A DNA stretch of 64,000 nucleotides from Streptomyces globisporus. GTDB lineage: Bacteria; Actinomycetota; Actinomycetes; Streptomycetales; Streptomycetaceae. Below the pieces are notes generated by a model. That model saw only the letters and a program-made list of their open reading frames with translations, searched no databases and had not been told where the DNA came from. Positions 39,974-57,787 of this stretch are shown here, in pieces; position 1 is the stretch's first letter; every line of letters begins with the position of its first letter. Location: assembly GCA_014649555.1 (NCBI GenBank), contig BMTG01000003.1:496001-560000 (forward strand). Reading direction: 5' to 3'. The translations under genes and the position numbers were made by a program.

Positions 39974-42439
39974 ATGGCATCCGCCGATGAGGGCTTCCCG
40001 GCGGAGCCCGGCCCGCTGCCCTCCGGGGACGGGCGGGGACCGGCGCGGATGGCCGACGACGCGGCCGCGGTGATCGCCGGGGACGGCACGGTCATCGGCT
40101 GGACCCGCGGGGCCGAGGCGCTGCTCGGGTATCCGGCGGCCGAGGTGGTCGGCCGGTCCGCCGCCCGCCTGCTGACCGGCCCGCCGGACCCCCGCCGGAC
40201 GGCTGCGGTGGCCGCGCGCTGCCGGACCGGGTCGGCGTGGAGCGGGCTGGTTGCGCTGCGGGGCCGCGACGGCCGGTCCCTGGACATCGATGTGCGGGCC
40301 ACCGCCTCGTTCCAGATCGCCGGGCAGGAGGTCTTCCTCGTGTCCGGGCGGGAGCTCACCCCGCACTGGACGATGAGCGGGTCCGTGCTGGACGACTTCA
40401 TGGCCCGGTCCCCCGTCGGGATGGCCGTGCTCGACCCCGGTCTGCGCTATCTCTGGCTCAACGACACCCTGGAGCGGTTCGGCGGCGTACCGCGCGAACA
40501 GCGTCTGGGGCGTCGGCCCGCCGACGTGCTGCCGACAGCTCTGGCGGCGCCCATCGAGCGGCTGATGCGGCAGGTCCTGTCGACGGGCGAGGCGGTCACG
40601 GACTACGAGTACCTGGGCTGGAGCTGGGCCGATCCGCACCGCCGACGGGCGTACGCGAGCTCGGTCTTCCCGCTGGCCGACGCGCAGGACCGGCGGATCG
40701 GCATCGGCTACATGGTCCGCGACGTCACCGACCGGTGGAACGCGCGGCGGCTGCTCGCGCTGGTCAACGAGGCCGGGGCGAGTATCGGCTCCACTCTGGA
40801 CGTACAGTGTACGGCGCAGGAACTCGCCGACTTCGCGGTGCCCCGGTTCGCGGACTTCGTCTTCGTCGACCTGCTGGAGAACCCGTTCGGCGGTGACCGG
40901 CCCGGGTCGGCCACACCCGCCGAGGGCGAGCGGCCCGCCATGCGCCGGGCGGGCATGAGCTCGGTGCGCGAGGGCTGCCCGGAGGCGGTCGTCCGGGTCG
41001 GGGAGGCGGTGGACTTCGTGCCGCCGCCGCACGACGCGCACTTCCTGCTGGCGGGCGCCCCGGTTCTGCTGCCGTCGCTCGACCCGGACAGCCACGGGTG
41101 GACGGTGGAGCACCCGGCGCGGGCCGCCCGGATCCGGGAGTTCGGGCTGCACTCGTTGATCTCCGTACCGATGCGGGCCCGCGACACCGTGCTGGGGCTG
41201 ACCACCTTCATGCGGTCGCAGAACCCGGTGCCGTTCGACGAGGACGATGTCGCGCCCGCCCGGGAACTGGTGGCGCGGGCCGCCGTGTGCGTGGACAACG
41301 CCCGCCGCTACACCCGGGAGCACACCGCGGCCCTGGTGCTCCAGCGGAGCCTGCTGCCGCAGACGCTGCGGGGCGGGACGGCGCTGGACGTGGCGTGGTC
41401 GTACCTCCCGGCGGACGCGAAGGACGGGGTCGGCGGCGACTGGTTCGACGTCATCCCGCTGTCCGGCGCCCGCGTCGGCCTGGTCATCGGCGATGTCGTC
41501 GGGCACGGCATCGGGGCCGCCGCGACCATGGGCCGGCTGCGCACCGCCGTACAGACGCTCGCCGACATGGACCTGCCCCCGGACGAACTGCTGGCGCGCC
41601 TGGACGATCTCGTCCTGCGGCTCAGCGAGGAGGAGCGTGCGGGAGGCCCGGCGGAGCGGGGCGGCTCGACGGTGGTGGGGGCGACCTGTCTGTACGCCGT
41701 CTACGATCCGACGAGCGGCTGCTGCACGATGGCGCGGGCGGGCCACCCCCCGCCGGTGGTCGTCACGCCCGACGGGGCGGTCACCTTCCCGGACCTTCCC
41801 TCCGGGCCGCCGCTCGGGCTCGGCGGGCTGCCCTTCGAGTCGCTGGAGTTGGTCCTGCCCGAAGGGAGCCTCCTCGGTCTCTACACCGACGGGCTCATCG
41901 AGGGGACCGACAGGGACGTCGAGAGCGGCATGGAACGGCTGGGCCGGGAGGTCTCCCGGGGCGGACTGCCGCTGGAGGATCTGTGTCCGGCGGTGGTCAA
42001 GGAACTGCTGCCGGTGCCGCAGCCGGACGACATCGCGCTGCTCCTCGCGCGGACGCATGTCCTGAGTCCGGAGCACCTGGTGTCGTGGGACGTCCCCGTG
42101 GACCCCGCGGCGGTCGGGGAGATCCGGGCGAAGGTCTCCCGCCAGCTGGAGGCGTGGGGGCTGGACGAGCTGTCGATGACGACGGAGCTGATCGTCAGCG
42201 AGCTGGTGACCAACGCGATCCGGTACGCCTCCGGGCCGGTACGGCTGCGGCTGCTGTTCCAGTCGGCGCTGACCTGCGAGGTGTCCGACGCCAGCAACAC
42301 CTCGCCCCGGCTGCGGCACGCCAGGACGACGGACGAGGGCGGGCGCGGCCTGTTCCTCGTCGCGCAGCTCGCGCATCGGTGGGGCACGCGCTACACGCCC
42401 CAGGGGAAGATCATCTGGGCGGAGCAGCCGATTCCCTGA
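39974..42439 (+). CDS. PAS-PAS-GAF-SpoIIE phosphatase with C-terminal HATPase (anti-sigma-factor-type kinase)
   Basis: Cytoplasmic signalling protein of 821 residues. PAS about 25-125 and 135-255, GAF about 265-440, PP2C/SpoIIE phosphatase about 460-680 (GGDWFDVIPL, IGDVVGHGIGAAATMGRL, YTDGLIEG), then a HATPase_c anti-sigma-type domain about 690-815 (ELVTNAIRYA, GRGLFLVAQLA). It likely controls an anti-anti-sigma partner in response to ligand or redox cues. GAGGTG precedes the ATG. Its 3' end overlaps the convergent ABC gene by 29 bases. Confidence 0.92.
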   Translation: MASADEGFPAEPGPLPSGDGRGPARMADDAAAVIAGDGTVIGWTRGAEALLGYPAAEVVGRSAARLLTGPPDPRRTAAVAARCRTGSAWSGLVALRGRDGRSLDIDVRATASFQIAGQEVFLVSGRELTPHWTMSGSVLDDFMARSPVGMAVLDPGLRYLWLNDTLERFGGVPREQRLGRRPADVLPTALAAPIERLMRQVLSTGEAVTDYEYLGWSWADPHRRRAYASSVFPLADAQDRRIGIGYMVRDVTDRWNARRLLALVNEAGASIGSTLDVQCTAQELADFAVPRFADFVFVDLLENPFGGDRPGSATPAEGERPAMRRAGMSSVREGCPEAVVRVGEAVDFVPPPHDAHFLLAGAPVLLPSLDPDSHGWTVEHPARAARIREFGLHSLISVPMRARDTVLGLTTFMRSQNPVPFDEDDVAPARELVARAAVCVDNARRYTREHTAALVLQRSLLPQTLRGGTALDVAWSYLPADAKDGVGGDWFDVIPLSGARVGLVIGDVVGHGIGAAATMGRLRTAVQTLADMDLPPDELLARLDDLVLRLSEEERAGGPAERGGSTVVGATCLYAVYDPTSGCCTMARAGHPPPVVVTPDGAVTFPDLPSGPPLGLGGLPFESLELVLPEGSLLGLYTDGLIEGTDRDVESGMERLGREVSRGGLPLEDLCPAVVKELLPVPQPDDIALLLARTHVLSPEHLVSWDVPVDPAAVGEIRAKVSRQLEAWGLDELSMTTELIVSELVTNAIRYASGPVRLRLLFQSALTCEVSDASNTSPRLRHARTTDEGGRGLFLVAQLAHRWGTRYTPQGKIIWAEQPIP

Positions 42440-44321
42440 GCACCGCGTCCGGCGACCGCTCGTGGGCGAAGAGGCGGGTGAGTGGGCCGTCGGCCCGGAT
42501 CAGCTCGTCCCAGGTGCCCTCCTCCACGATGCGCCCGCCGTCAAGGACCGCGATCCGGTCGGCCCTGCGAACGGTGGCCGGGCGGTGGGCGATGACCAGG
42601 GTCGCCCGGGTGGCGGAGCCGGCCGCGAGCGCCCGGGCCAGTTCCGCGTCACCCCGGTGGTCCAGATGGGCGGTCGTCTCGTCCAGGACGAGGACGCGCG
42701 GGCCGCTCAGCAGCGCCCGGGCCAGGGCCACCCGGGCGCGCTGGCCGCCGGAGAGGGTGGCGCCGCGCTCGCCGACCGGGGTGTCAAGACCGTCGGGCAG
42801 GGCGTCGGCGACGGTGTCGACGCCGCAGATCCGGGCCACCGCGTCGAGTTCGTCCGCCGTCGTGCCGGGGGCGCCCAGGCGGAGGTTCTCGGCGAGCGTT
42901 CCGTGGAAGAGCGGGGTCTCCTGCCCCACCACGGACACGGCGGCGCGCAGCTCGTCCTCGGCGAGGTCCCGCAGGTCGACGGGGTGAGCCGGGGCGGGGG
43001 GAACGAGTTCCAGGGTGCCTTCGACCGGGTCCCAGTAACGGGCCAGGAGGTGGGCGCAGGTCGACTTGCCGGCCCCGGACGCTCCGACGAGGGCCACGGT
43101 CTCACCCGGTTGGATGGTGAGGTCGACGCCGTCCAGCACGGCCTCTCCCCCGTAGCCGAACCGTACGCCGCGCAGCCGCAGGCCGAGCGGGCCGGGCGGT
43201 ACGGGACGGGGGTCGGCGGGGGCAGGGGCTCCCGCGGGGGCGTGCACGGCGGCCCGGACCCGGGCCGCGGCGGCGCGCAGACCACCCGCCCGGCCGAGCG
43301 CGGCCGCCGATTCCGCGACCGGGGCCAGGGCGCCCAGGGCGAGCGCCATGGCCGCCGGGGCCCATGCCCCGTCGAGCCGCTCGGCGGACGCGGCGTGGGC
43401 GGCGGCCGCCACGACCCCGACGACGGCGGCGACGACCAGCAGGTCGCGGGCCGCGCCCGCACCGGTCTCCCACGACTGTTCGGCGCGCTGGGCGCGGGCG
43501 AGCCGCCGCCCGGCGGACCGGAGCCGGGCCCGCCTGCGGTTCAGCGACCCCGTCATAAGGAGCTCGCGCAGTCCGTCGACGCTCTCCACGGTCTCCGACG
43601 ACAGCTCGGCGAGCGCGCTCCGGGTGCGGTGCCCGCGCTCGGCCCGCCCGCGCGCTTCGAGGAGCGGTGACCAGATCAGCAGCAGCGCGGCCGGGACGAC
43701 GGCGAGCAGCAGCCAGGGCCCGAGAGCGGCCAGCACGGCCGCCGACACCGCGAAGACCACACCGGATGCCAGGAGTTGGGCGATGGCGTGGGCGTAGAAG
43801 AACTCCAGTGCCTCGACGTCCCCGAGCGCGGTGGCCGCGAGGTCGCCGCTGCGCCGGCCCGCGATCCGGGCGGGGGCGCTGCGGGCCAGTCCGTCGAAGA
43901 CCCGGACGCGCAGTTCGGCCAGGACCCGGTAGGCCAGGTCGTGCGAGAGGTCCATCTCGCGCCAGGTGGCGAGTGCCCGGAGGAGGACGAGGCCGATCAG
44001 GACGGCGACAGTCTCGGGGGCGGGCGGGCGGTGCTCGGTGACGGCTGTGCCCACCGTGTACGCGGCGAGGGTGACCAGGGCCACCAGGGCGGCCTGGTCG
44101 ACGAGGGCGGCCAGGCAGGTGCGAAGCACGGTGGCGCGGTGCGCGCCGAGGACGGGGAGGAGCGAGCGCAGGGCGCCGGCCGGGGCCGGGTCCGGAGCCT
44201 GGGTCGTGCGCGGGGGCGGGGCAGGGGGCTGAGCCTGGGCCGGGTCCGGAGCCTGGGCCGTGTGCGGGGGCGGGGGTGAGTCCTGGGACGGGGACTCGGT
44301 CGCGCGGGGGTTCGGAGTCAT
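42411..44321 (-). CDS. ABC exporter half-transporter (CydC-like), RiPP cluster
   Basis: Type IV ABC half-transporter of 636 residues: a Pro-rich N-terminus, six TMs (about 60-340) and an ATPase with Walker A VGASGAGKST, signature LSGGQ, Walker B VLVLDETTAHLD. It overlaps the partner gene by an ATGA, so the two should make a heterodimer. Position at the end of the RiPP operon suggests export of the mature peptide or its precursor. CydDC-like homology alone would also allow thiol export. Confidence 0.88.
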   Translation of the reverse strand: MTPNPRATESPSQDSPPPPHTAQAPDPAQAQPPAPPPRTTQAPDPAPAGALRSLLPVLGAHRATVLRTCLAALVDQAALVALVTLAAYTVGTAVTEHRPPAPETVAVLIGLVLLRALATWREMDLSHDLAYRVLAELRVRVFDGLARSAPARIAGRRSGDLAATALGDVEALEFFYAHAIAQLLASGVVFAVSAAVLAALGPWLLLAVVPAALLLIWSPLLEARGRAERGHRTRSALAELSSETVESVDGLRELLMTGSLNRRRARLRSAGRRLARAQRAEQSWETGAGAARDLLVVAAVVGVVAAAAHAASAERLDGAWAPAAMALALGALAPVAESAAALGRAGGLRAAAARVRAAVHAPAGAPAPADPRPVPPGPLGLRLRGVRFGYGGEAVLDGVDLTIQPGETVALVGASGAGKSTCAHLLARYWDPVEGTLELVPPAPAHPVDLRDLAEDELRAAVSVVGQETPLFHGTLAENLRLGAPGTTADELDAVARICGVDTVADALPDGLDTPVGERGATLSGGQRARVALARALLSGPRVLVLDETTAHLDHRGDAELARALAAGSATRATLVIAHRPATVRRADRIAVLDGGRIVEEGTWDELIRADGPLTRLFAHERSPDAVLRESAAPPR

Positions 44322-46057
44322 GCGGCGCGCTCTTCCTGTGTGGTGCGTCCGGCCGCGACGAGCGAGGCGTACACGCCTCCGCCCGCGAGCAGGGTGGTGT
44401 GGTCGCCTGCGGCGGCCACCCGGCCCGCGTCGAGGACGACGATGTGGTCGGCGTGGCGCACGGCGTCGAGCCGGTGGGCGACGACGATGCAGGTGCGGCC
44501 GCGTCCGGCCGCCGCCAGCTCCCGGACGATGCGCGCCTGGCCGCGTTCGTCGACGGCGCTGGTGGCCTCGTCCAGGATCAGGACCGGGGCGTCGGCCAGC
44601 AACGCCCTGGCCAGGGCGAGCCGTTGGCGCTGGCCGCCGGAGAGCGTCGCGCCGCGTTCGCCGACGAGGGTGGCGTAACCGTCCGGGAGCCGGACGATCT
44701 CCTCGTCGATCCCGGCGGTCCGGGCGGCGGTACGCAGGTCTCCGTCCGTGGCGGCGGGGCGGGCGACGCGCAGGTTCTCCGCGATCGTGGCGTGGAAGAG
44801 GTACGTCTCCTGCGAGACCACGGCGATGCCCCGGCGCAGCGAGGCGAGGGCGTACGCGGCGGTGTCCGTCCCGGCTACGGTGACGCGGCCCCCGTCCGGG
44901 TCCCGTTGCCGCAGCAGGAGGCTCAGCACCGTCGACTTCCCCGCGCCGGACGGGCCGACGACGGCGGTGGTGCGCCCGGCGGCAGCGGTGAAGGACACGC
45001 CGTCGAGGGCGGGCCGGGCGCTCCCCGGGTGGGTGAAGTGCACGTCGTCGAAACGGATTTCGGGCGGCCCCTCCCAGACGGCGGTCACGGTGCCCCGGTC
45101 CGGAACGGCGGCCTCGGCGGTGCGCAGGGCGGCGATTCCGTCGGCCGCCGACACCCCGAGGTAGCCGGCGTGCCACTCACGGGAGAGGTCCCGGACGGGG
45201 CGGAAGCATTCGGAGGCGAGCAACAGCAGAAGGTAGGTGCCGGTGGCGGCGGTGCGGCCGGTGGCGGCGGATGAGCACGCCACGAGTACGGCGGCGACCG
45301 TGCCGCCCTGGACGGCCAGATCGGTGAGGCCGGTGTCGACGAGCGAGACCCGCAGTTTGGCGACGGTGCTCCGGTGCAGGGCGGCCGACCGTCGCTCCAG
45401 CCGTTCCCGTACGCGGCCCACGGCACCGGCGCTGCGCAGCGTCGGCATCCCCTGGAGTGCCTCCAGGTAGTCGGCGGCGAGGGCTTCGTAGGTGTCCCAG
45501 TGCTCCTTGCCGCGCCGCGCCAGCAGCCGGTCCCACCAGCGCGGCCCGAAGAGGGCGAGCAGCAGGGCGGGCCCGAGGGCGAGCGCCGCGTACGGCTCGA
45601 CGAGAGCGACGGCGACGAGCAGCAGCGGCGGGACGGCGGCGGTGATGAGGAGTTGGGGCAGGTAGCGCGAGATGTACGCGTCGACGCCCTCGACCCCGTC
45701 CACCAGCGTGGCCCGAACGGCTCCGGCCCGCGCACCGGTGATCGCGGTGGGGCCGAGCGCGCCGAGCCGCTCCAGCAGGGTGTCGCGCAGCCTCACCCGT
45801 ACGGTGGCCCCGGCCGTGACGGCGACCAGGCGCTGGGCGCGACCGAGGGCGGCACGGACCAGGACGACGGCGATCACGGCGGTGAGCAGCGGGGCGAGGG
45901 AGGCCGTCTCCCCCTGGGCGATCCGGGAGAGCACGAGGGCGAGGAGGACGGCCTGGGCGAGGTGGGTGGCGGTGACCGCCGCGAGCAGGGCGGTGGCGAG
46001 GCCGAGCGGGCGCCGCGCGGTGTGCGCTGCGCGCAGGAGTTCGAGGTGGAGCATCAT
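44318..46057 (-). CDS. ABC exporter half-transporter (CydD-like), RiPP cluster
   Basis: Type IV ABC half-transporter of 579 residues: six TMs in the first 310 residues, then an ATPase with VGPSGAGKST, LSGGQRQRLALARALL and VLILDEATSAVDE. The ATG at 46057 overlaps the dehydrogenase stop (ATGA) and follows GAGGAAG. It pairs with the CydC-like gene next to it. No C39 leader-peptidase domain is fused. Confidence 0.88.
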   Translation of the reverse strand: MMLHLELLRAAHTARRPLGLATALLAAVTATHLAQAVLLALVLSRIAQGETASLAPLLTAVIAVVLVRAALGRAQRLVAVTAGATVRVRLRDTLLERLGALGPTAITGARAGAVRATLVDGVEGVDAYISRYLPQLLITAAVPPLLLVAVALVEPYAALALGPALLLALFGPRWWDRLLARRGKEHWDTYEALAADYLEALQGMPTLRSAGAVGRVRERLERRSAALHRSTVAKLRVSLVDTGLTDLAVQGGTVAAVLVACSSAATGRTAATGTYLLLLLASECFRPVRDLSREWHAGYLGVSAADGIAALRTAEAAVPDRGTVTAVWEGPPEIRFDDVHFTHPGSARPALDGVSFTAAAGRTTAVVGPSGAGKSTVLSLLLRQRDPDGGRVTVAGTDTAAYALASLRRGIAVVSQETYLFHATIAENLRVARPAATDGDLRTAARTAGIDEEIVRLPDGYATLVGERGATLSGGQRQRLALARALLADAPVLILDEATSAVDERGQARIVRELAAAGRGRTCIVVAHRLDAVRHADHIVVLDAGRVAAAGDHTTLLAGGGVYASLVAAGRTTQEERAA

Positions 46058-47622
46058 GGGCGTTCTTCCTCGCCGGGCGGGGCAGCCGGGGCGGCGGATG
46101 CCGTGGGTGGGGTGGCAGCGGGCGTGGGGGCCGGGGTGGCGGCGGGCGTGGCTGGGCCGGCGGCTGTCGTGGCCGGGGTGACAGCGGGCCTGGCCAGGGC
46201 GGTGGCTTTCGTGACCGGGGTGGCCGCTGTCGTCGGGGGTGCGCCGAGGGCAAGGCCGTGCACGATCCAGTCGCGTCCGGGGGTGTCGCCGAGCGCCGCG
46301 CCCAGGTCGGCCTGTTGCCAGGAGCCGACGGGGCGCGAGGGCAGGCCCCGTGCGGTGGCGTGCGCCTGGGCGACGCCGACCGCGTATCCGGCGGTGAGGT
46401 GACTGCTGCGGACGGTGGCCCGCGGGGCGTCCTCGGGGCAGCCGTGGGCGAGGAGCACCGCGCCTGCGGCGCCGATCCACTGCTGGCCCGCGGCCCAGTG
46501 GGCGAGGGTGGGACGCGCGTCGCCCACGGCGCGGAGGTCGAGGCCCGGCCTTCCGGGAGCCGCTGCGTACAGGGCCGGGGTGACACCGCCCAGGGCCACG
46601 GTCCACGCGGGCCCGTCCGGCGGCACGCTCTGCACGGTGGCCAGGATTCGCGTGAGCAGTTCCTTGTTGAGCGGGCGGGTCAGGTCCTCGGGCGGGGCGC
46701 TCCGGCGCGCCCCCAGAGCCTCGTCGGTCAGCTCTCCGGGGCGGTGGGCCGGGTGCCAGGTTCCCTCGGGCCGCCCGGACGCTCCGGCGATGTGGTGCAG
46801 CAGGTGCCGTGCCGCTGCGAGTTCACGGGGTGGGGCGGTGCCGGCTCCTGGTTGTGGCGTCGGGGCCGAGGCGCGGGGCAGAGCGGCCCAGGCGCGCAGC
46901 GGCGTTCCGCCCTCGACGGGGCAGCCCGGAGGCATCAACCGTACGGCTGCGAGCGGTAGTTCCGGCTCGGTGCCGGGCCAGATGGCCTGCCAGTCCGGAG
47001 CCTCGGGCAGTCCGGCGGCGGCGGACAGGAGGCGGCCGTCCACGTCGAGGGAGACCAGCACGTCGGCGTTCGTGGCGCCGGCGAGCGCGAGGGCGGCGGC
47101 GGCATGACCCGTGTCGAGGAGCAGCAGCGGCCAGGCCCGGTGGCCGTAATGGGCGACGGTACGGGACGCGGCCACGGTGAGGACGACGAGAGCTCCCGGG
47201 GGTACGCCGTCGGGGGCCGGGCCTCGCCGGTGGGCGCGGTGGGTGCGGGGGTCGTAGGCGTATCGCCCGGGCGGCAGCGAGCACTTCCGCCCGAGCAGCA
47301 GATGGGGGCGCACCGGGTGCAGAGCACCCGCCGAGGGAACGGGTCGCAGTCGGCCCGGCGTGCCGGCGGGCGCTGCCAGGGAGAGCCGCAGCGCACGGTC
47401 CAGGTCGATCGCGGTCCCGGGCTCACTGGCGTACGTGGTCGTGGGGCCGTTCCACGGGAACGGGCGCTCCGGAACGTACGGGGAGAGCTCCGGAACACGC
47501 GGCGACCGAGCGTCCGCGAGCGCCGCGCGCAGGACGTCCGGTGCGGCGGGTAGGACGGCGCCCACCCCGCAAACGGGCGCGGCGGCTCGGTCCGTCGTGT
47601 CGGGCATGGTGGCGTGCTCCAT
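46054..47622 (-). CDS. SagB/McbC-type azoline dehydrogenase (nitroreductase fold)
   Basis: Flavin-dependent dehydrogenase of 522 residues, expected to oxidise YcaO-made azolines to azoles. Two nitroreductase-like halves are visible: PVPSAGALHPVRPHLLLG...GRYAYDPRTHRAHR with LLLLDTGHAAAALALAGA, and later GTPGRDWIVHGLALG. The last ~60 residues are a low-complexity Ala/Thr/Pro tail ending PGEEERP. The start overlaps the YcaO stop by one base (TGATG). Assignment rests on context plus fold motifs. Confidence 0.82.
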   Translation of the reverse strand: MEHATMPDTTDRAAAPVCGVGAVLPAAPDVLRAALADARSPRVPELSPYVPERPFPWNGPTTTYASEPGTAIDLDRALRLSLAAPAGTPGRLRPVPSAGALHPVRPHLLLGRKCSLPPGRYAYDPRTHRAHRRGPAPDGVPPGALVVLTVAASRTVAHYGHRAWPLLLLDTGHAAAALALAGATNADVLVSLDVDGRLLSAAAGLPEAPDWQAIWPGTEPELPLAAVRLMPPGCPVEGGTPLRAWAALPRASAPTPQPGAGTAPPRELAAARHLLHHIAGASGRPEGTWHPAHRPGELTDEALGARRSAPPEDLTRPLNKELLTRILATVQSVPPDGPAWTVALGGVTPALYAAAPGRPGLDLRAVGDARPTLAHWAAGQQWIGAAGAVLLAHGCPEDAPRATVRSSHLTAGYAVGVAQAHATARGLPSRPVGSWQQADLGAALGDTPGRDWIVHGLALGAPPTTAATPVTKATALARPAVTPATTAAGPATPAATPAPTPAATPPTASAAPAAPPGEEERP

Positions 47623-48995
47623 CACATGTGCGGTGGCGGGGCGAGGGTGAAGTCCTCGGGTGCCGCGGGCGGTCGGGTGCGCCAGCCCCGGGCGAGCGCC
47701 GCTTCCTCGAAACGCGGGCAGCCGAAGTAGCCGAAGGCGGCGGGGGCGTTGGGGATCAGCCCTGAGACCAGGACCCGGGCGACGCGCAGCGTGGTCTCCG
47801 CGACGTCCTCCGTGGTGAGGTCCGCGGTGATGACCCGGTGGCCCCCGGCGGCGAGTGCCGCGTCGAGCGCGGTGCGGCTGCCGGGAGTGATCGCGGTGAC
47901 CGGGACGACCCCCAGGGCGGGTTCGGTGAAGCGGCGGGCGAGCGGGGCCATCCGGTCGTCCAGCCAGACCTGGACATGGGCGCCGAGGTCCCGGACCGCG
48001 GCGAACTCCGGCCCGCAGTCGTCGAGATAGCGCCGGTCGGCCCGATGGTCGAGGTAGAGGCCGCGGGCGAGCATCCCGGCCTCGACCGCCCGGTACACCC
48101 ACCCGTCCGCATCCACCGCGCCTTGTGTGAACACCCAGGTGTGCACGGCCTCCAGGACGGCCTTGCGGGCCGCTTCCGCCGGGTCGTACCGGCAGGCGAA
48201 CCCCGCCGCGTACATACCGCGCCCGGGATCGTGCACGAGGGCCGCGACGCAGGGGGCGAACTCGGAGGGCATCTCCACGATGTGCACGTCCAGCGCGCAG
48301 CCGGCCAGGTCCTCGGTGAGTCCGGGGACACTCGCCGGGTCGATGCCGCGGGTGGGTCCGTCCAGGTGCCACCACAGCTCCAGCGCGTCACGCTCGACGA
48401 CTTCGAGGAGCCCGCGCTCGACGGCGTCGTCGAGGCCCTGCCCGGTGGCGATGCCCGCGTAGTTGAGGTGGTGGGTGCGGGGCAGCGAACGCAGCTCCCC
48501 CTGACGCCAGTTGAGATGGGTCAGGGCGACGGGGGCCCAGCAGAGCTCCCCGTTCTCGACCGCCCGGGTCCACAGCGCCGGTGTGTCAGGGACGGGTTCG
48601 GCGTACGGGAAGCCCGGGCGGCCGTACTGCCACGGTGCGTACGCCGGGAGCGCGCCGGGGCCGTAGAGGCGGGAACCCTCGGCGGTCAGCTCGGCCGCGG
48701 TGGCGCGCCGGGGCTCCTGGGGGTGGCCGGGCGGCGGGAGGCGGTTGCCGCAGTAGCGCTCCACGGCCTCGGCCACCGCGGCGATCCAGGCACCCCGGGG
48801 GTCGCCGAAGGTGGTGCCGAGCGAGACCCGGTCGGCGGGCCAGGCGCCGAGGCGGCGGGCGTCGGCGACGTCGGCGGTCATCGCGGTGTAGCGGGGCGGC
48901 GCACCGGCGGGGTGCTCGACGGGGGCGACGGCGCGGACGATCCCGCTGACGGAATCGACGAGGGCTTCGAGGGGCAGGGCGCTGGTCAACGGCAT
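47622..48995 (-). CDS. YcaO-domain cyclodehydratase
   Basis: ATP-dependent peptide backbone-activating enzyme of 457 residues. The YcaO core has SLGTTFGDPRGAWIAAVAEAVERYCG (Mg/ATP-binding Glu residues) and LLEVVERDALELWW. The C-terminus ends LAPPPHM, Pro-rich but not a clear PxPxP. It would convert Ser/Thr/Cys of the precursor to azolines with the RRE-bearing partner. The ATG at 48995 is preceded by GGAG and overlaps the hydrolase gene by 10 bases. Confidence 0.9.
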   Translation of the reverse strand: MPLTSALPLEALVDSVSGIVRAVAPVEHPAGAPPRYTAMTADVADARRLGAWPADRVSLGTTFGDPRGAWIAAVAEAVERYCGNRLPPPGHPQEPRRATAAELTAEGSRLYGPGALPAYAPWQYGRPGFPYAEPVPDTPALWTRAVENGELCWAPVALTHLNWRQGELRSLPRTHHLNYAGIATGQGLDDAVERGLLEVVERDALELWWHLDGPTRGIDPASVPGLTEDLAGCALDVHIVEMPSEFAPCVAALVHDPGRGMYAAGFACRYDPAEAARKAVLEAVHTWVFTQGAVDADGWVYRAVEAGMLARGLYLDHRADRRYLDDCGPEFAAVRDLGAHVQVWLDDRMAPLARRFTEPALGVVPVTAITPGSRTALDAALAAGGHRVITADLTTEDVAETTLRVARVLVSGLIPNAPAAFGYFGCPRFEEAALARGWRTRPPAAPEDFTLAPPPHM

Positions 48996-50557
48996 ATCTC
49001 CGGTACGGGCTCGACGTAGCGGCGTCGGGCGACGACGGGCAGGTGGAGGGCGCTGCCCCGGGGGTTCACGGTGCGGCGGGAGGGGACGAGCCGGATGGCG
49101 GTGACCGGGTCGTCGCCGGTGTGCGGATTGCGGGCGTGGGCGGGGAAGTGGTGTCCGGCGATCTCGGCCCGCAGCCGGGTCCCGGCGGGCAGCCTGCGAC
49201 CGAGGGTGCCGAGCGGCACGGTGATGTCGGCGGCTTCGCCGGGCGGGCCGGTGCGCCGGACGATGCCGAAGGCGAGCGGATCGGCGCGGCCGGACGGGTC
49301 GAGCGCGGTCAGGCGTACGGCCCAGTCCGCCGAGGGGGTGTCGGCCGTGACCGCGATCCGGGCGACGGCGGCCCCTGCCAGGTCGAGCGGGCGGGGCAGC
49401 GGCGGCGAGAGCAGCAGGCAGCGGTCGGCATGGTCGCCGTCGACCGGGACGGCGAGGTCGTCGGAGCGCACGGGGCGCTCCGGGTCGGCGCTGAACTCGG
49501 CTCCGTGGAGCAGCCGTAGACCGGTGGACGAGCCGAAGGGCCAGCGGCACTCCGCCTCGGGAGCGGTCTCGGGCCGCTGGGTGCCGCGCACCCGGGTGGT
49601 GTGCCAACGGCCGCTGTCGCCAAGGGCGATGACGCCGTGCCGTGTCGGCTCCAGGCGCGCGGCGAGCGCGGCGCGGGCCCACCGTACGTACAGCGCACCG
49701 AGGTTGACACGCGCACGGGCCGGAGCGGTCCGGTCGGCGGTGAGGCGGTGCCCCCAGGGTCCGAGCAGCAGTCGCGCCGGTCCGCCCCAGCCGCGCCAGA
49801 GGGCCACGGTGTCCTCGGCGAAGGGGTCGCGGGTGCCGCCGACGGCGAGCAGAGGAAGGCCGACGGAGGAGCCGAGCGCGATGAGGCGGCCGCGTTCCCG
49901 GTCGGCCCAGAGCCGGGGCCAGGACGGCAGTTCACGCCCGAGACCCGTGGCCATCCGCTCCGCCAGACGGGCGACCGGCAGGTGTTCGAGCAACCGGGGG
50001 TCGTCGGCCAGGGCGCGTTCCAGGGCGTCGGGGTCGGAGTCGCGCCGGTCGCCGTGGGCCGCCCACCAGCCGGCCCGGGCCCACAATCGCTCCGGGCCGC
50101 CGGGCTCACGCGCGGTCTCGCTGAGCCCGAGCGCGGGAACGGCGGCGATGACCGCGTCGGGGATTCCGTCGCCTTGCACCACGCCGGGGGCTGCGTCGGG
50201 GTCGTCGAGTGCGGTGACGAGGGCGCAGTACGCGGCGTAGGAGGCGCCAACGGCGACGACCTCCCCGTTGCTCCACGCCTGTGCGCGCACCCAGGCGACC
50301 GTGGCCGCGCCGTCCGCCTTCTCCTGATCCTGGTACGGATGCCACTCCCCCGGTGAACCGTGGCGGCCGCGTACATCCTGGGCGAGGGCGGCGAATCCGT
50401 GTGCCGCCCAGCCGCGCAGCTCGGCGCGGTGGGCCTCGCGCCCGTACGGGGTGCGGATCAGGACGGCGGGACGCGGGCGGTTTCCGTCCGGGAGGCAGAC
50501 GTCGGTGGCGAGCGGGGTGCCGTCCGGCGCGGGGACGGACACGGTGCGGGTGTTCAC
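48986..50557 (-). CDS. CocE/NonD-family alpha/beta hydrolase (X-Pro dipeptidyl-peptidase-like)
   Basis: Serine hydrolase of 523 residues, S15 type: N-terminal APDGTPLATDVCLP, oxyanion IRTPYGR, nucleophile Ser in VGASYAAY, Asp in GGTRDPFAED, His in GPWGHRLT, and a C-terminal jelly-roll domain (PVDGDHADRCLLLSPPL, LRAEIAGHHFPAHARNP). No signal peptide. Embedded in the RiPP operon (GTGA overlap upstream), it may remove the leader or follower, or cleave an ester or amide. This is inference. Confidence 0.85.
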   Translation of the reverse strand: MNTRTVSVPAPDGTPLATDVCLPDGNRPRPAVLIRTPYGREAHRAELRGWAAHGFAALAQDVRGRHGSPGEWHPYQDQEKADGAATVAWVRAQAWSNGEVVAVGASYAAYCALVTALDDPDAAPGVVQGDGIPDAVIAAVPALGLSETAREPGGPERLWARAGWWAAHGDRRDSDPDALERALADDPRLLEHLPVARLAERMATGLGRELPSWPRLWADRERGRLIALGSSVGLPLLAVGGTRDPFAEDTVALWRGWGGPARLLLGPWGHRLTADRTAPARARVNLGALYVRWARAALAARLEPTRHGVIALGDSGRWHTTRVRGTQRPETAPEAECRWPFGSSTGLRLLHGAEFSADPERPVRSDDLAVPVDGDHADRCLLLSPPLPRPLDLAGAAVARIAVTADTPSADWAVRLTALDPSGRADPLAFGIVRRTGPPGEAADITVPLGTLGRRLPAGTRLRAEIAGHHFPAHARNPHTGDDPVTAIRLVPSRRTVNPRGSALHLPVVARRRYVEPVPEICR

Positions 50558-51540
50558 GCGCGGGCCTCGGCGGCGCTCTCCCCGGCGCGCGTCCCCACCG
50601 GGGCCGGCACGGGCAGCGGCGCGACGTCCGGGACGGGAAGCACGGGGTGCTCGGTGAAGGTGAGATCGCGCAGATCGATCCGGCGCAGCCGACGGCGGGG
50701 CGGAAGACCGGCCGGCTGCCGCCCCACCCCGCCCGCAGCTTCGGCTTCGGCTTCGGCTTCGGCTTCGGCTTCGGCTTCGGCTTCGGCTTCGGCTTCGGCT
50801 TCAGCCCAGGCAATCAGGTCGGCGGTGAGCAGGGCGGCGATCAGGGCGGCGGACGCTTCGGTGGGGTGGGGACCCGTGTCGGGGGTGCGGTGTCCGGCCC
50901 AGTACGCGGCGAGTTCGCGATGGGCGGGGGTGGCCGCGAGTCTACGGAGGCGGACATGCCGGGAGGTGACGTCTCCCGGGGCCGCGGCAAGGGGCTCGAT
51001 CCAGCTGTGCGAGCCCTCGCGGTGACTGCGCAGCCAGGCGATACGCCGGTCCGGCAGCCGGTCCGCCGTGTCCCAGAGCCCTTCAGGCACGGGCGAGTCC
51101 AGGCACCACACCACGGCGACACACCCTTCGGGGCGGCCGCGGTCCGGGACGGCGCGGGCCAGCTCCGCGACCTGGTCGGGCGTGATCCGGCGGACCTCGG
51201 CCCCTTCCGCCCCGGCGCAGCGAGCCACAGGCCCGGTGAGCACGGGGTCGCCGAGGACATGGACGGTGCGGGCGGCGAGCGGAGCCCGGGGCGGAACGGA
51301 CACCGCGTGCCCACCGGCCTCGAACGCCTCCACGAGCCTAACGAGTTCGGCGGTCGGCGGCTCTTCGGCCGACGGCTGCCCGCCCGGCGCTTCCTCGCCC
51401 GCCAGCCGACGCACCAGCGCTTCCCCGGTGACGCCACGGGTGTCGATGCGCAGGAACTCCCCTCCGGAGGTCCGGAGCACGGGGGCGGCGCCGGGAACGG
51501 TGACGATCCCGGTGCCGGGAGCGAGTCGACTGCGGGTCAC
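50554..51540 (-). CDS. TOMM precursor leader-binding protein (RRE/Ocin-ThiF-like)
   Basis: Protein of 328 residues. The first ~90 residues look like a PqqD-type RiPP recognition element (LAPGTGIVTVPG...VLRTSGGEFLRIDTRG...LVRLVEAFEAGGHAVSV); the middle resembles inactive ThiF/E1 partners of YcaO enzymes. Residues ~245-267 are an Ala-Glu dipeptide run encoded by a hexanucleotide microsatellite. It should present the precursor to the YcaO enzyme. The GTG at 51540 has GGAGGA 6 bases upstream. Confidence 0.78.
   Translation of the reverse strand: MTRSRLAPGTGIVTVPGAAPVLRTSGGEFLRIDTRGVTGEALVRRLAGEEAPGGQPSAEEPPTAELVRLVEAFEAGGHAVSVPPRAPLAARTVHVLGDPVLTGPVARCAGAEGAEVRRITPDQVAELARAVPDRGRPEGCVAVVWCLDSPVPEGLWDTADRLPDRRIAWLRSHREGSHSWIEPLAAAPGDVTSRHVRLRRLAATPAHRELAAYWAGHRTPDTGPHPTEASAALIAALLTADLIAWAEAEAEAEAEAEAEAEAEAEAEAAGGVGRQPAGLPPRRRLRRIDLRDLTFTEHPVLPVPDVAPLPVPAPVGTRAGESAAEARA
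50738..50803. repeat. Hexanucleotide microsatellite, eleven units
   Basis: Ten perfect GCTTCG units (plus strand) run from 50738 to 50797, followed by GCTTCA. On the coding strand they encode an Ala-Glu run in the leader-binding protein. Unit length is a multiple of three, so slippage changes protein length without a frameshift. Confidence 0.95.
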
Positions 51541-51600
51541 GGAATCCTCCGGGTCGGAAAGGAAGGGGGAAGACGGGGACGGAATGACTGGGGCCGAACG

Positions 51601-51639
51601 GGGCGGGCCCGCCCGGGTTGTCACCGGGCGGGCCCGCCC
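51601..51639. terminator. Hairpin between precursor gene and modification genes
   Basis: GGGCGGGCCCGCCCGG and CCGGGCGGGCCCGCCC form a perfect 16-bp stem with a 7-base loop. It lies 42 bases after the precursor stop and 61 bases before the next start. Likely a partial terminator or mRNA-stabilising stem that sets precursor:enzyme ratio. Confidence 0.75.
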
Positions 51640-51680
51640 CCGCGCCACGCGGGAGACCTGCCTTCAGCGGCAGGAGTCGC

Positions 51681-51815
51681 TTACTTCTCGGCCGCGGTGT
51701 CGGCCTCGACGGCGTCGTCGAAGGGGTTCTCGACGAGGGCGTTCGAGTGGGTGGCGGAGAGGTGGGCGAGCTGGCCCTGGTCGGCGATCGGGCTGAACAC
51801 CTTGTTCTGCTCCAT
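51681..51815 (-). CDS. RiPP precursor peptide (azol(in)e class, candidate metallophore)
   Basis: Peptide of 44 residues. The N-terminus MEQNKVFSPIADQG is leader-like; the centre AHLSATHSN clusters Ser20, Thr22, Ser24 with His18 and His23; the C-terminal 20 residues are acidic (VENPFDDAVEADTAAEK) with one Thr and no Cys. No Cys occurs at all, so YcaO products would be oxazol(in)es. The ATG at 51815 has GGAGG 9 bases upstream and the stop is TAA. First gene of the operon behind a Zur-like promoter. Confidence 0.82.
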   Translation of the reverse strand: MEQNKVFSPIADQGQLAHLSATHSNALVENPFDDAVEADTAAEK

Positions 51816-51880
51816 GAGTTGAAGCCTCCATTCAGATCGGATGGGTGTGGGTCGCGGCGTTGGTGCGTGCCGCAGCACAG

Positions 51881-51910
51881 ACACTAATGAATATGATTTT
51901 CATTCCGCAA
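51881..51910 (-). promoter_or_regulatory. Zur-like box in the spacer of the RiPP precursor promoter
   Basis: TGAATATGATTTTCA at 51888-51902 differs from the Streptomyces Zur consensus TGAAAATGATTTTCA at one position. On the minus strand TTGCGG (51910-51905) and TAGTGT (51886-51881) flank it with an 18-base spacer, so Zur binding would block RNA polymerase. Transcription would start near 51874, about 59 bases before the precursor ATG. The box overlaps the last codons of the ATPase gene. Confidence 0.72.
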
Positions 51911-52729
51911 TAGCTGGAGTGGATCGAGAGGGTGATCTGGGTAACAGACGGGCCAGCCGCCCTCGTCGTCGATCCCCACCCGGCCGTCCACGCCGAGGAC
52001 TTCGGCCAGGAGGTGCCGGGTGACCACCTCGGCCGGGGGCCCGTCGGCGGCGATGCGGCCTTCCCGGAGCGCGACGATCCGATCGGCGAACCGGGCGGCG
52101 TGGTTGAGGTCGTGCAGCACCAGCACCACCGTCAGCCGGCGTTCCGCGCGCAGCCGTACGACCGTCTGGAGCACCTCCAGTTGGTGCCGCAGGTCGAGGT
52201 AGGTGGTCGGCTCGTCGAGGAACAGCACGGGGGCGTCCTGGGCCAGCGCCATGGCCAGCCGGACACGCTGGCGTTCGCCTCCGGAGAGCGCGTCCACGGG
52301 CCGGTCGGCCCAGCCGGTGACGCCGACGTCCGCGAGCGCCCGGGATGTCACCTCGTCGTCGCCCTCCCGCAGCATCCCGAGCGGCCCCCGGGCGGCATAG
52401 CGCCCCTGCCGTACGAGTTGACGCACGGTCAGCCCCGGTACGGAGGGCGCCGACTGGTGCAGCAGCGCCACGCGCCGGGCGGCGGTGCGGCGGGGCAGTC
52501 GCGCCACGTCGTCGCCGTCGAGCAGGACACGCCCGCCGCTCGGGGTGAGCAGTCCGGCGGCGAGTTTGAGGAAGGTGCTCTTGCCGCATCCGTTCAGCCC
52601 GATCAGGGCGACCAGTTCACCGGCCCGGATGCTCAGGTCCACCCCGCGCAGCACCGGACGTCCGGGGTAGCCGAAGGCCAGCCCCTCCGCCCGGACGACG
52701 TCCGGGGTTCTCGGTGTCGCACTGGCCAT
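51884..52729 (-). CDS. Metallophore/siderophore-type ABC importer ATPase (FecE/BtuD-like)
   Basis: ATPase of 281 residues: Walker A IGLNGCGKST, signature LSGGERQRVRLAMALAQ, Walker B VLFLDEPTTYLDL and H-loop VLHDLNHAARF, typical of iron-siderophore and cobalamin importers. The C-terminus ends in ENHIH, encoded within the Zur-like box region. The ATG at 52729 has GGAG 7 bases upstream; an ATG at 52771 overlapping the permease stop is the alternative. Confidence 0.9.
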   Translation of the reverse strand: MASATPRTPDVVRAEGLAFGYPGRPVLRGVDLSIRAGELVALIGLNGCGKSTFLKLAAGLLTPSGGRVLLDGDDVARLPRRTAARRVALLHQSAPSVPGLTVRQLVRQGRYAARGPLGMLREGDDEVTSRALADVGVTGWADRPVDALSGGERQRVRLAMALAQDAPVLFLDEPTTYLDLRHQLEVLQTVVRLRAERRLTVVLVLHDLNHAARFADRIVALREGRIAADGPPAEVVTRHLLAEVLGVDGRVGIDDEGGWPVCYPDHPLDPLQLLRNENHIH

Positions 52730-52767
52730 CGCGCTCTTCTCCACTGTTCTCTCCCTTGCTCTCTCCC

Positions 52768-53826
52768 TCATCTCTCGTCCGCCCGTCGCCGTGCCACGAC
52801 CATCAGCAGCCCCGCCCCCACGCAGGTGGTCAGGGCGCCGACCGGGAGGGTCAGCCGGTCCGCGTCGAGCGCCGTCGCCAGCAGCCGGGACAGCAGCTGT
52901 GCCGCGGCGTCCGCCCCGCAGACCACCGCGGCACCGAGCAGCGCGGCGCCCGGAAGGGTGACGCGGAGATCGGCTCCGAAGACGGCCAGCGCCAGATGGG
53001 GCACCAGGAGCCCGACGAATCCGAGGGCGCCCACGGCCGACACCGCGCCGGCCGTCAGCGCCACCGCGCACACGAGCGCCGCTCCCCGTCCCCGACCGGT
53101 GGCCAGACCCGCTGCGGCGGCCTGTTCGTCGCCGCAGCGCAGCAGGGTCAGGGGCCCGGCGAGCAGCCAGGCCGCCGCGCCCCAGATGGCGGCCCACGGC
53201 CAGAGCAGATTCCAGTGCTGCCAGACCCGGCCCTCGGTGGAGCCGATCAACCACTGGACGACGCTGCCGAGTTCACCGGGGGCCACCAGGAGGACGACCG
53301 CGGTGAGTCCGGCGAGCACCGCCGACACGAGGACCCCGTAGACGGCGGTCTGTTCCGGGTCGCCCCGGTCCCGCCCGGCGAGCAGCCACAGCAGTCCCGC
53401 CCCGGCGAAGCCGCCGACGCAGGCCGCGACGACCACAGCCGTGGGGGACTCCCACCCCGCGAGGCCGAGGCCGGTCGCGGTCACCGCGCCGAGCACCGCG
53501 CCGGGCGTGACGCCGGTGACCTCGGGTCCGGCCAGCGGGTTGCGCAGGGCGGACTGGAGCACGAGCCCGGCCACCCCGAGGCAGGCCCCGGCGACCAGGG
53601 CCACCAGCATCCGGGGCAAGCGGAGTTGGAGCACGATGTGCTCGGCGGTGGGGTCGCCGCCGGCCCCGAGCAGCACGGCACGTACGCCCTCGGGGGTGAC
53701 GCCCCGGCCGGCAAAGAGTCCGGCACAGGCGACGACGGCGACGAGCAGCGTCAGGCCGCCGATCCGGACACCCGGTGCGCGCAGAGCCCGGCGGGCCGGG
53801 ACAGGCGCGGCATCGACGAAGGTCAT
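52768..53826 (-). CDS. FecCD-family metallophore importer permease
   Basis: Permease of 352 residues with nine to ten TMs, FecCD/BtuC fold. Signature LRLPRMLVALVAGACLGVAGLVLQSALRNPLAGPEVTGVTPGA near residues 65-105, and GFVGLLVPHLA later. The ATG at 53826 overlaps the stop of the other permease (ATGA). Confidence 0.92.
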   Translation of the reverse strand: MTFVDAAPVPARRALRAPGVRIGGLTLLVAVVACAGLFAGRGVTPEGVRAVLLGAGGDPTAEHIVLQLRLPRMLVALVAGACLGVAGLVLQSALRNPLAGPEVTGVTPGAVLGAVTATGLGLAGWESPTAVVVAACVGGFAGAGLLWLLAGRDRGDPEQTAVYGVLVSAVLAGLTAVVLLVAPGELGSVVQWLIGSTEGRVWQHWNLLWPWAAIWGAAAWLLAGPLTLLRCGDEQAAAAGLATGRGRGAALVCAVALTAGAVSAVGALGFVGLLVPHLALAVFGADLRVTLPGAALLGAAVVCGADAAAQLLSRLLATALDADRLTLPVGALTTCVGAGLLMVVARRRADER

Positions 53827-54884
53827 CGTTCCGCCTTCCGCAGCACGGGAGCGGGGACGTCCGGCGACGTCACCGGTGCGGGCAGGGGAACGGGTCCCCG
53901 GGCCCGGGCGGGCCGTCTCCCCCGTTTCAGCAGGAGGACCCCGACCGGTACGCCGACCAGGGCCGTCCAGGCGCCGACGGGCGTCTCGACCGGGGCGAGC
54001 GCGAGCCGGGCCGGCTGGTCGGCGCAGAGCACGACGATCGCGCCGCACACGGCGGACCGGACGAGCCACCCGGCCGCGCCGCCGTCCGGGCGGAGGCGGC
54101 GGGCGAGGTGCGGGGCGAGGAAGCCGACCCAGGCCACCGGTCCGCAGACCGCGACGACGGGGGCGATGAGGACGACGGCGATGCCCAGGGCAGCCACCCG
54201 CGCCCTCTCCACCCGTACGCCCAGCGCGCGGGCGTCGTCGTCGCCGAGCCGCAGCACACCGAGCACCGGAACGCACAGGATCAGCGCCGGGACGGCCACG
54301 GCGAGCCAGGGCAGGAGACCGGTGACGTCGTCCCAGGTGCGGGCGGACAGACTGCCCAGCAGATAGCGGTAGATGAGCTGGAGGTCGAGCTGGTCGGCCA
54401 TGACCATGAGCACCAGCAGGGCGGCCTGGAGCGCCGCGGCGACGGCGGCCCCGGTCAGCAGGACCGCCGAGGGGCTCCGCCCGAATCCGGCGGCGACCAG
54501 GGTGAGCAGACCGCCGAGCGCCGCCCCGGCCAGGGCGAGGAACGGCTGGATCCCGAGCGGCACGGCCAGCGACAGGACCAGCGGTGCGGCGACGCCGAGG
54601 GCGGCCCCGGAGGAGACGCCCAGCATCTCGGGCACGGCCAGCGGGTTGCGCAGGGCCTCCTGGAGGACGAGGCCCGCGGCACCCAGGCAGGCTCCCGCGA
54701 CCAGCGCCAGCACCATACGGGGCAGCCGCAGTTCGGTGACGACGAGCCCCGCGAGCCCGTCGCGGCCCAGGGTGCCCGGGAGCCGGACGGGCGGGACGTA
54801 CGGCGTGCCGAGGCTGAGTGCGCAGACCGCGCCTGCCAGGGCCGCCGCACCCAGGCAGAGCAGCGCCACGGGCGGACGCCTCAC
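53823..54884 (-). CDS. FecCD-family metallophore importer permease
   Basis: Permease of 353 residues, FecCD fold: LRLPRMVLALVAGACLGAAGLVLQEALRNPLAVPEMLGVSSGA, RTWDDVTGLLPWLA and WVGFLAPHLARRL. GTG at 54884 overlaps the binding-protein stop (GTGA). Together with the neighbouring permease it should form the membrane channel. Confidence 0.92.
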   Translation of the reverse strand: MRRPPVALLCLGAAALAGAVCALSLGTPYVPPVRLPGTLGRDGLAGLVVTELRLPRMVLALVAGACLGAAGLVLQEALRNPLAVPEMLGVSSGAALGVAAPLVLSLAVPLGIQPFLALAGAALGGLLTLVAAGFGRSPSAVLLTGAAVAAALQAALLVLMVMADQLDLQLIYRYLLGSLSARTWDDVTGLLPWLAVAVPALILCVPVLGVLRLGDDDARALGVRVERARVAALGIAVVLIAPVVAVCGPVAWVGFLAPHLARRLRPDGGAAGWLVRSAVCGAIVVLCADQPARLALAPVETPVGAWTALVGVPVGVLLLKRGRRPARARGPVPLPAPVTSPDVPAPVLRKAER

Positions 54885-55867
54885 CGCAGTGCGGCCGTGG
54901 CCTCGTCGAGGACGAGACCCAGGGACCGGGTGCCGCGCCCCTTGGCCCACACCTCGGAGTCGACCTCGATGACCTTGCCGTTCTTCACGGCCGGGATACG
55001 GGACCAGAGCGGGTTCTTCGCCAGCTTGTCCGAGAGCTTCCCGTCGGGCGCGCCGAAGGAGAGGGTCTCCACGAACAGGACGTCGACGTTCCGGGCGAGG
55101 ATCTCCTCCAGGCTGTAACTGCCGTCGACACCCCGGCTCTTCCACGGGTAGTGGGAGATCTTCGGGAACAGTCCGGCGGCCACGTCGGTCTCCGGGGTGG
55201 CCACACCGAAGTTCTCGTCACTGCCGTAGATGATCAGCGCGGTCTTGTCGCTCTTCTGCTGCTCCGCATCCGCCAGGCGGGTGCGGAAGGTCTTCTCCGC
55301 CTTCTCCCCCTCTGCGGTGCGGCCGGTGAGCGCGGCGAGGTCGCGCAGATAGCCGACGCTGTCCTGCCAGGATGCGGGCTGGAGCGGCCAGAACGTCGTG
55401 GCACCCTTCAGCGCGGGGGCGAGCTTGCCGTGCGTGTCCTCCAGGCCGATGACCAGGTCGGGCTGGTGGGCGAGGACCGCCTCGACCTCGGGGCTGAGGA
55501 AGCCGCCGGGCACGACCGGTATCTCCGCCGCCTTCTCCTTGCCGAGGAACTCCGGGTGCGCCAGCACCTGGGAGTTGGTGGCGGCGGGGGTCATGCCCAG
55601 CTCGACGAGGATGTCGTCGCAGAGGGCGACCAGGCAGACGATCTTCTCCGGCGGCTTCGGCAGGGAGACCTGGACGCCCTTGGCGTCGGTGATCCGGGTA
55701 GCGGCCTCGATGGGCCGCACCTCCGTACTCGTACGGGCTCCGGCGCCCGCCGCCGCAGCCGGTTTCCCGGTGTCGGGGTCGGCGTTCTCGGTGCCGCAGC
55801 CGGCCAGCAGGCCTCCCAGTACGGCGATCGCGGCCCAGCGGCGGACTCTCAGCGCGGTTCGTGGCAT
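54881..55867 (-). CDS. Metallophore-binding lipoprotein (periplasmic-binding protein type III)
   Basis: Extracytoplasmic lipoprotein of 328 residues, FhuD/BtuF-like. Lipobox LLAGC gives the anchored Cys near residue 24. Two lobes joined by a long helix are inferred from EKIVCLVALCDDILVELGM, PDLVIGLEDTHGKLAP and the C-terminal GKVIEVDSEVWAKGRG. Cys and His in the first lobe are notable. The ATG at 55867 follows GAGGGA. First gene of the importer operon, behind a Zur-like box, so the ligand is probably a zinc-linked chelate rather than ferric siderophore. Confidence 0.88.
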   Translation of the reverse strand: MPRTALRVRRWAAIAVLGGLLAGCGTENADPDTGKPAAAAGAGARTSTEVRPIEAATRITDAKGVQVSLPKPPEKIVCLVALCDDILVELGMTPAATNSQVLAHPEFLGKEKAAEIPVVPGGFLSPEVEAVLAHQPDLVIGLEDTHGKLAPALKGATTFWPLQPASWQDSVGYLRDLAALTGRTAEGEKAEKTFRTRLADAEQQKSDKTALIIYGSDENFGVATPETDVAAGLFPKISHYPWKSRGVDGSYSLEEILARNVDVLFVETLSFGAPDGKLSDKLAKNPLWSRIPAVKNGKVIEVDSEVWAKGRGTRSLGLVLDEATAALR

Positions 55868-55959: not shown

Positions 55960-55988
55960 TTACACATGATTATCATTTCCAATAAAGT
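55960..55988. promoter_or_regulatory. Zur-like box in a divergent promoter
   Basis: TGATTATCATTTCCA at 55967-55981 matches 12 of 15 bases of the Zur consensus (TGAAAATCATTTTCA). Toward the plus strand TTACAC (55960-55965) and TAAAGT (55983-55988) are 17 bases apart with the box filling the spacer. The box also lies about 100 bases upstream of the importer operon on the minus strand, so one site could control both directions. Confidence 0.65.
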
Positions 55989-57481: not shown

Positions 57482-57787
57482 TCACCAGGAGGACTTGGTC
57501 ACTCCGGGCAGGAATCCCGCGTGGGCCTGCTCCCGCATCCGGACCCGGGAGAGGCCGAACTTGCGCACATATCCCCGCGGCCTGCCGTCGACGCCGTCCC
57601 GGTTACGGACCCGGGTGGCGCTGGCGTCACGCGGCTGCCGCCGCAGTTCCTCCACGGCGGCTAGACGCTCACGCTCCGGGGTGCCGGGCCGGCGGATGAT
57701 CTCCTTCAGCTCGGCCCTGCGGGCCGCGTACCGCTCGACGGTCGCCCGGCGGCTGTCGTTCCGCGCGATCTTGCTCTTCTTCGCCAT
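57482..57787 (-). CDS. rpsN: 30S ribosomal protein S14, zinc-independent paralogue
   Basis: Ribosomal protein of 101 residues in the long bacterial S14 form ([53 protein letters not shown]). It lacks the CxxC-CxxC zinc ribbon of the short form. Such paralogues replace zinc-binding versions during zinc limitation. Its ATG shares one base with the L28 stop (TGATG). Confidence 0.95.

Follow-up and report, generated by a model that had tools for sequence, protein, structure and literature searches.

Predicted Zur control of the streptamidine (ami) cluster suggests a peptide metallophore system for zinc

Why would a bacterium that makes a small ribosomal peptide keep an exporter and an importer for it in the same row of genes, and under which condition is the peptide made? 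The question is raised by a stretch of 64,000 nucleotides of Streptomyces globisporus (assembly GCA_014649555.1, contig BMTG01000003.1, positions 496,001 to 560,000; hereafter the window), whose source genome is assembled in 58 contigs and measures 8.25 Mb; the stretch holds eleven genes on the minus strand between positions 42411 and 55867. A sequence-only reading of this DNA had described them as a Zur-controlled cluster for an azol(in)e-type ribosomally synthesised and post-translationally modified peptide (RiPP) that binds zinc. Profile searches of the predicted proteins confirm the row of eleven, with matches for the importer, the hydrolase, the YcaO enzyme and the exporter.

The cluster is a streptamidine (ami) cluster of the layout published in 2021 and hence not new (PMC8442711). 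Gene set and order are identical to those of the streptamidine cluster of Streptomyces albidoflavus J1074 (PMC8442711, MIBiG BGC0002115), amiX upstream included, the HLSATH core of the precursor is the same, and the two precursors have the family NF040714 ('streptamidine family RiPP', NCBIfam) in common, which AmiA matches here at 3e-19 and 68.6 bits against a cut-off of 40. The set of amiF1–F4, amiA–E, amiT1 and amiT2 is complete in the window, with amiB assigned by position and length. The two loci differ in their surroundings, as zinc-starvation ribosomal-protein genes adjoin the cluster here, whereas different flanking genes are described for J1074 (PMC8442711). The authors of that paper already linked the importer to the peptide and suspected metal import, leaving its role open (PMC8442711); a text search of its main text did not find 'Zur', which the supplements, lying outside that search, might mention. 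The new element is therefore the link to Zur and zinc, while the cluster, the importer link and the idea of metal import belong to the earlier work.

Zur-type sites in the cluster and its relatives

Judged from its DNA, the ami cluster is very probably under Zur control, as the sequence-only reading had supposed. Boxes stand at the heads of both halves of the cluster, where that reading had placed them. The box of amiA (51888–51902, minus strand) fits the Zur consensus obtained for S. coelicolor by chromatin immunoprecipitation on microarrays (ChIP-chip), tGaNNatSatNNtCa (PMC5472717), exactly and overlaps the last codons of amiF4; the box in the divergent amiF1/amiX promoter (55967–55981, minus strand) departs from it by one mismatch. 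Across the window there are nine matches with at most two mismatches against 1.47 expected, and none of 100 shuffles reached nine (shuffles and resamples are first-order Markov resamples throughout). Exact sites number four in the whole genome, amiA among them. A second separates an ABC-3 permease gene from aztA, which encodes a zinc-transporter ATPase, and overlaps the predicted start of aztA; the remaining two coincide with predicted genes, in their interior or at their start. One-mismatch places amount to 127 in the genome, compared with 14 for the reversed pattern. Scans for sigma-70 promoters at both Zur boxes returned no promoter-like site.

For scoring, a motif was learned de novo from 20 promoters of L31/L33 ribosomal-protein genes of relatives, away from ami (the clean motif, to which scores refer unless stated otherwise). 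The starting point was 30 L31 loci, from which we left out L191 with its weak L31, seven loci beside amiX, and L162 and L171, which lie a few kb beyond amiT2; eight of the 20 training promoters, all from L31-only loci, carry no site scoring at least 15. An earlier motif comprised 22 sequences, including the promoters of L162 and L171. The highest scores in the window belong to the ribosomal promoter (58063; 22.7), the amiF1/amiX promoter (55964; 22.0) and amiA (51885; 20.2, with a second overlapping register at 19.0), and the next best place elsewhere in the window scores 10.6. The region of the Zur gene reaches 17.5 and that of aztA 18.0. In the relatives, the two boxes hold 1.65 and 1.49 bits of information per column and their flanks 0.22–0.50, values from the earlier motif that were anchored on the best match, which favours the box.

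Within the genus, 38 of 295 genomes encode a relative of AmiD at E ≤ 1e-60; within the class, 35 of 394 do so at E ≤ 1e-25. We examined the best 80 of 381 AmiD-related loci (the named loci; AmiD 76–98% identical), the closest among them being that of S. rubiginosohelvolus with 98%. After exclusion of loci at contig ends and, for amiF1, of four loci without an adjacent importer, 68 could be scored for amiF1 and 74 for amiA at a threshold of at least 15. A site is present in 66 of 68 amiF1/amiX regions of 250 bp (resampled regions: 13/3400) and in 73 of 74 amiA regions of 550 bp (71/74 within 450 bp; resampled regions: 14/3700). Below the threshold remain the amiF1/amiX regions of L263 (13.6) and L265 (14.5) and the amiA region of L265 (12.7). 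For comparison, the best scores in resampled DNA (72 loci, one resample each) had a median of 9.4 and a maximum of 17.2. The ChIP consensus with at most one mismatch recovers 66/68 and 65/74 of the same regions, and in 72 stretches from genomes with AmiD relatives it occurs 37 times exactly and 91 times with at most one mismatch, against 0.0 and 1.0 in resamples. Both sites are also carried by another strain of the streptamidine-producing species, S. albidoflavus NRRL B-1271 (L216). Named loci with enough flank have the importer adjacent in 68 of 72 cases and the exporter in 65 of 65, which supports the dedicated importer and exporter of the sequence-only reading. The named and the other locus sets share species, so their counts are not summed, and close relatives are not independent.

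More distant clusters (L119–L150; AmiD 27–65% identical) were scored at a threshold of at least 14, on rough gene maps on which some sites lie off the cluster promoters. There, 25 of 32 loci have a site, with 43 sites against 5.2 expected, and L134 is uninformative (shuffle mean 1.70). The earlier motif had given 68/68 for amiF1/amiX, 74/74 for amiA in 550 bp and 28/32 for the distant loci (65 sites against a shuffle-mean sum of 3.0).

A strict palindrome, TGANAATSATTNTCA, was tried and set aside as too narrow, as it occurs in 8 of 16 genomes at 11 places, eight of them at ami, and nowhere in the genome studied here. It was also seen at or near the 5' end of SBP_bac_5 genes in two relatives (L158, L160), maybe marking another Zur-controlled importer for metals or peptides, and before a gene for a ZnuA-type lipoprotein in one (L161). 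Extra Zur-type sites near the cluster and outside the ami promoters appear with the earlier motif in L205 (1762), L235 (1985 and 18275), L265 (17918) and L240 (5288).

A regulator that could read these boxes is at hand. The genome encodes four Fur-family proteins, one of which matches the structures 3mwm/7vo0, which we take to be S. coelicolor Zur, at 5e-76 and the M. tuberculosis 'probable zinc uptake regulation protein FurB' at 3e-49. Another matches 3eyy, presumably S. coelicolor Nur, and the remaining two were compared with NCBIfam only.

Proposed zinc traffic and the evidence against it

Because export, import and biosynthesis are gathered in one cluster under predicted Zur control, a peptide that carries zinc would be the simplest account, and we consider it probable, if far from secure, that ami is a peptide metallophore system for zinc (zincophore). 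In zinc-replete cells, zinc-loaded Zur would occupy the amiF1/amiX and amiA boxes and silence importer and biosynthesis, both of which zinc shortage would switch on alongside the zinc-starvation ribosomal proteins. The 44-residue streptamidine-family precursor AmiA (51681–51815; minus strand, as are all genes from amiF1 to amiT2), in which the HLSATH core is followed by SNALVENPF, would then be converted to a small modified peptide by the putative leader-binding/E1-like protein AmiB (50554–51540) with the YcaO/SagD enzyme AmiD (47622–48995), the CocE/S15-type hydrolase AmiC (48986–50557; proposed as leader peptidase in PMC8442711) and the candidate SagB-type flavin dehydrogenase AmiE (46054–47622). 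The ABC exporter halves AmiT1 (44318–46057) and AmiT2 (42411–44321) would release the peptide, which may capture zinc outside the cell and return through the FecB-type binding lipoprotein AmiF1 (Peripla_BP_2, lipobox LAGC; 54881–55867), the FecCD permeases AmiF2 (53823–54884, start codon uncertain) and AmiF3 (52768–53826) and the FecE-type ATPase AmiF4 (51884–52771). AmiX (425 residues, conserved; 56079–57356, plus strand), whose divergent gene has the Zur-box promoter in common with amiF1, might act on the returned complex inside the cell.

Most gene labels of the sequence-only reading stood, namely those of importer, precursor, hydrolase, YcaO enzyme and exporter. The SagB-type label of AmiE found a weak match (5.8e-10, below cut-off), and the label of AmiB as carrying a RiPP recognition element (RRE) found no significant RRE or other family match in our profile search (TIGR03882, E 0.38); an RRE and an E1-like structure of AmiB were reported from Phyre2 (PMC8442711), an analysis that we follow together with position and length. 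AmiT1 and AmiT2 match best, below the family cut-offs, the thiol exporters CydD and CydC, respectively, and not the listed peptide exporter families. Among solved structures, the relatives of AmiF1 mostly bind siderophores or iron compounds, the closest being siderophore-type binders; its residues C78 and C83 are invariant in 29 sequences and are possible contacts to a metal or ligand. AmiX, overlooked by the sequence-only reading like the zinc-starvation ribosomal-protein genes beyond it (57482–60058), has no NCBIfam match at E ≤ 1 and weak profilin matches only among solved structures, and these comparisons gave no support for a role as AztD-type zinc chaperone.

The azol(in)e label has to be withdrawn. 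The ami cluster has a YcaO enzyme and a weakly matching SagB-type dehydrogenase in common with microcin B17/SagB-type azol(in)e peptides, but its core is not Ser/Thr-rich (AmiA lacks Cys and contains few Ser/Thr residues), and the product known for the same HLSATH core, streptamidine, bears a six-membered amidine instead of azoles (PMC8442711). An azole product was rejected in view of the Cys-free precursor and the known amidine.

Regulation and anatomy fit the zincophore that the sequence-only reading had proposed, while several published and comparative results speak against it. Purified streptamidine bound none of Fe, Co, Cu, Mg, Mn, Ni and Zn by chrome azurol S (CAS) assay or liquid chromatography–mass spectrometry (LC-MS), and an amiD mutant resembled the wild type under metal starvation (PMC8442711), although further zinc importers of the strain could mask an effect of this single mutation. 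Deletion of amiF1–F4 abolished the product (PMC8442711), an effect not expected if these genes served uptake alone, and the available part of that paper describes high production with no mention of zinc chelation. Among the relatives, four of 72 clusters (L220, L222, L229, L240) lack an adjacent importer and have amiX near amiA, with the amiA box kept; the cores of precursors with motif B are very different (PQDPTTH, PQGPGTN) and show no obvious metal ligands. Seven of the 32 distant loci have no site scoring at least 14, and most of L134–L150 have no ChIP-consensus site within one mismatch. Finally, the whole evidence for Zur is in silico.

Streptamidine production required amiB–E and amiF1–F4 and was reduced by loss of amiT1–T2, shorter HLSAT and HLSA forms occur beside it, and it contains no oxidation despite the need for AmiE, for which the explanations of the authors include loss of an oxidised part (PMC8442711). 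If streptamidine were the final exported product, the need for importer and dehydrogenase would be awkward. The published negative zinc binding concerned purified streptamidine, and a larger form of the product could differ. Streptamidine may be what is left over after re-import. Extended to the whole family, we tentatively suggest, as a conjecture that we would not call likely, that ami clusters make widespread ribosomal-peptide zincophores whose exported zinc-binding form is longer and AmiE-oxidised, is re-imported via AmiF1–F4 and is then trimmed intracellularly to the HLSATH amidine, streptamidine being the spent fragment. This would explain why importer and AmiE are needed although streptamidine carries no oxidation, why exporter loss merely lowers streptamidine, where the shorter HLSAT and HLSA come from and why the purified compound binds no zinc. 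The negative phenotype, the unlike motif B cores and the importer-less clusters weigh against this extension just as they weigh against a zincophore in general.

Rival readings of the locus

The alternative that survives best, though we think it unlikely, is a Zur-controlled peptide serving as signal or weapon in zinc shortage, with the importer used for sensing or self-uptake and not for zinc supply. The missing zinc binding and starvation phenotype (PMC8442711) would fit such a peptide, importer deletion might abolish production through a sensing loop, and motif A cores are unlike those of motif B. Streptamidine showed activity against neither bacteria nor fungi, however (PMC8442711), the importer is of the FecBCDE type with a lipoprotein closest to siderophore-type binders, and a zinc-type motif is common to importer and precursor across families.

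It is improbable, and clearly more so than the signal or weapon, that the peptide is a metallophore for cobalt, nickel or copper whose genes are induced when zinc runs short, perhaps so that another metal can stand in for it. FecCD-type importers also carry cobalamin and other ligands, and the SBP_bac_5 family, whose genes carry Zur-type boxes at or near their 5' ends in two relatives, includes nickel and peptide binders. The metal-related neighbours that can be named, on the other hand, all point to zinc starvation (ribosomal paralogues, ZnuA, CobW-C), and binding of cobalt, nickel and copper was not found either (PMC8442711).

That the boxes reflect iron control or another Fur-family regulator, the cluster being an ordinary siderophore-like system, is very improbable. 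The 7-1-7 palindrome resembles Fur boxes of other bacteria, and four Fur-family proteins are encoded; the motif was trained, however, on ribosomal-protein promoters, and the other FecCD importers of the genome provide a direct control. Their 11 clear regions reach best Zur scores of 6.9–14.3, compared with 22.0 for ami, with 110 resamples of these regions at or below 19.9. Boxes of the iron type, scored against an assumed 19-base consensus, occur with 1–5 mismatches out of 19 in eight of these 11 regions, whereas the best place in ami has 8/19 mismatches and resamples give 6–8, so that the importer promoter of ami lacks the iron-type box of iron-siderophore uptake. Among the twelve FecCD importer regions, only ami has a predicted zinc-type site at this level, and iron control was rejected on this comparison. 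A further FecCD importer just past the window end (L308, G000:C3:556500-569500) has an iron-type box with 2/19 mismatches and no Zur site.

A mere neighbour effect of the ribosomal-protein operon that adjoins amiX here can be practically dismissed, as the cluster holds two separate boxes of its own and 54 of 74 amiA-region loci have no ribosomal gene in the fetched DNA (flanks of at most 10 kb), yet 73 of 74 keep the amiA box.

Neighbouring genes and related systems

The ribosomal genes beyond amiX were recognised by family matches. On the minus strand lie paralogues of S14 without cysteine (57482–57787) and of L28 with one cysteine (57787–58023), followed by the Zur-type site of the divergent L28/L33 promoter (58063–58077), which has the highest clean-motif score in the window. 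On the plus strand, paralogues of L33 (58094–58258), type B L31 (58319–58573) and S18 (59810–60058), all without cysteine, enclose a CobW-C/MRF-like GTPase (58570–59724; match below the NCBIfam cut-off). Ribosomal genes of the rpmG/B type are known Zur-repressed targets in S. coelicolor (PMC5472717). Of the 80 named loci, 20 have genes of this operon in the flanking DNA that was fetched, arranged in one of three ways: by amiX in 12 (many of them close relatives), by amiX in turned order in L232, and beyond amiT2 in seven.

Among the distant loci, the L150 cluster also contains genes for ZnuA, an ABC ATPase and CobW-C. An S9 oligopeptidase is encoded in both L120 and L121, accompanied by CobW-C in the former and by a Peripla_BP_2 protein in the latter; its gene adjoins amiX in the two distant loci checked. 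L139 and L147 combine a Peripla_BP_2 protein with an MFS transporter. In one genome of 3.5 Mb (G139), ami is present in triplicate as similar copies that include amiX and ABC exporters (L128, L129, L130; one cut by a contig end), and tblastn found no FecCD permease in these stretches.

The regulation proposed for ami has a precedent in the same genus, where the biosynthetic cluster of coelibactin, the presumed zincophore of S. coelicolor, is described as Zur-repressed (PMC5472717, PMC3430247). Coelibactin is nonribosomal, unlike the ribosomal ami peptide with its YcaO-type enzymes. The nicotianamine-like metallophores staphylopine and pseudopaline are secreted and re-imported by dedicated transporters, as proposed here for ami. 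These two stand under zinc-starvation control and are small molecules without a ribosomal precursor. Methanobactin is a ribosomally made metallophore that also has genes for its import and export; it binds copper through Cys-derived ligands and is made by other enzymes, none of which was found among the family matches of the ami cluster in our profile searches.

The predicted zinc-starvation switch in nearly all named copies of the cluster points to zinc shortage as the condition of production and to zinc as the metal to look at. If the zinc reading is true, ami would provide the first ribosomal-peptide zincophore, so far as literature searches show, and one that is common in actinobacteria.

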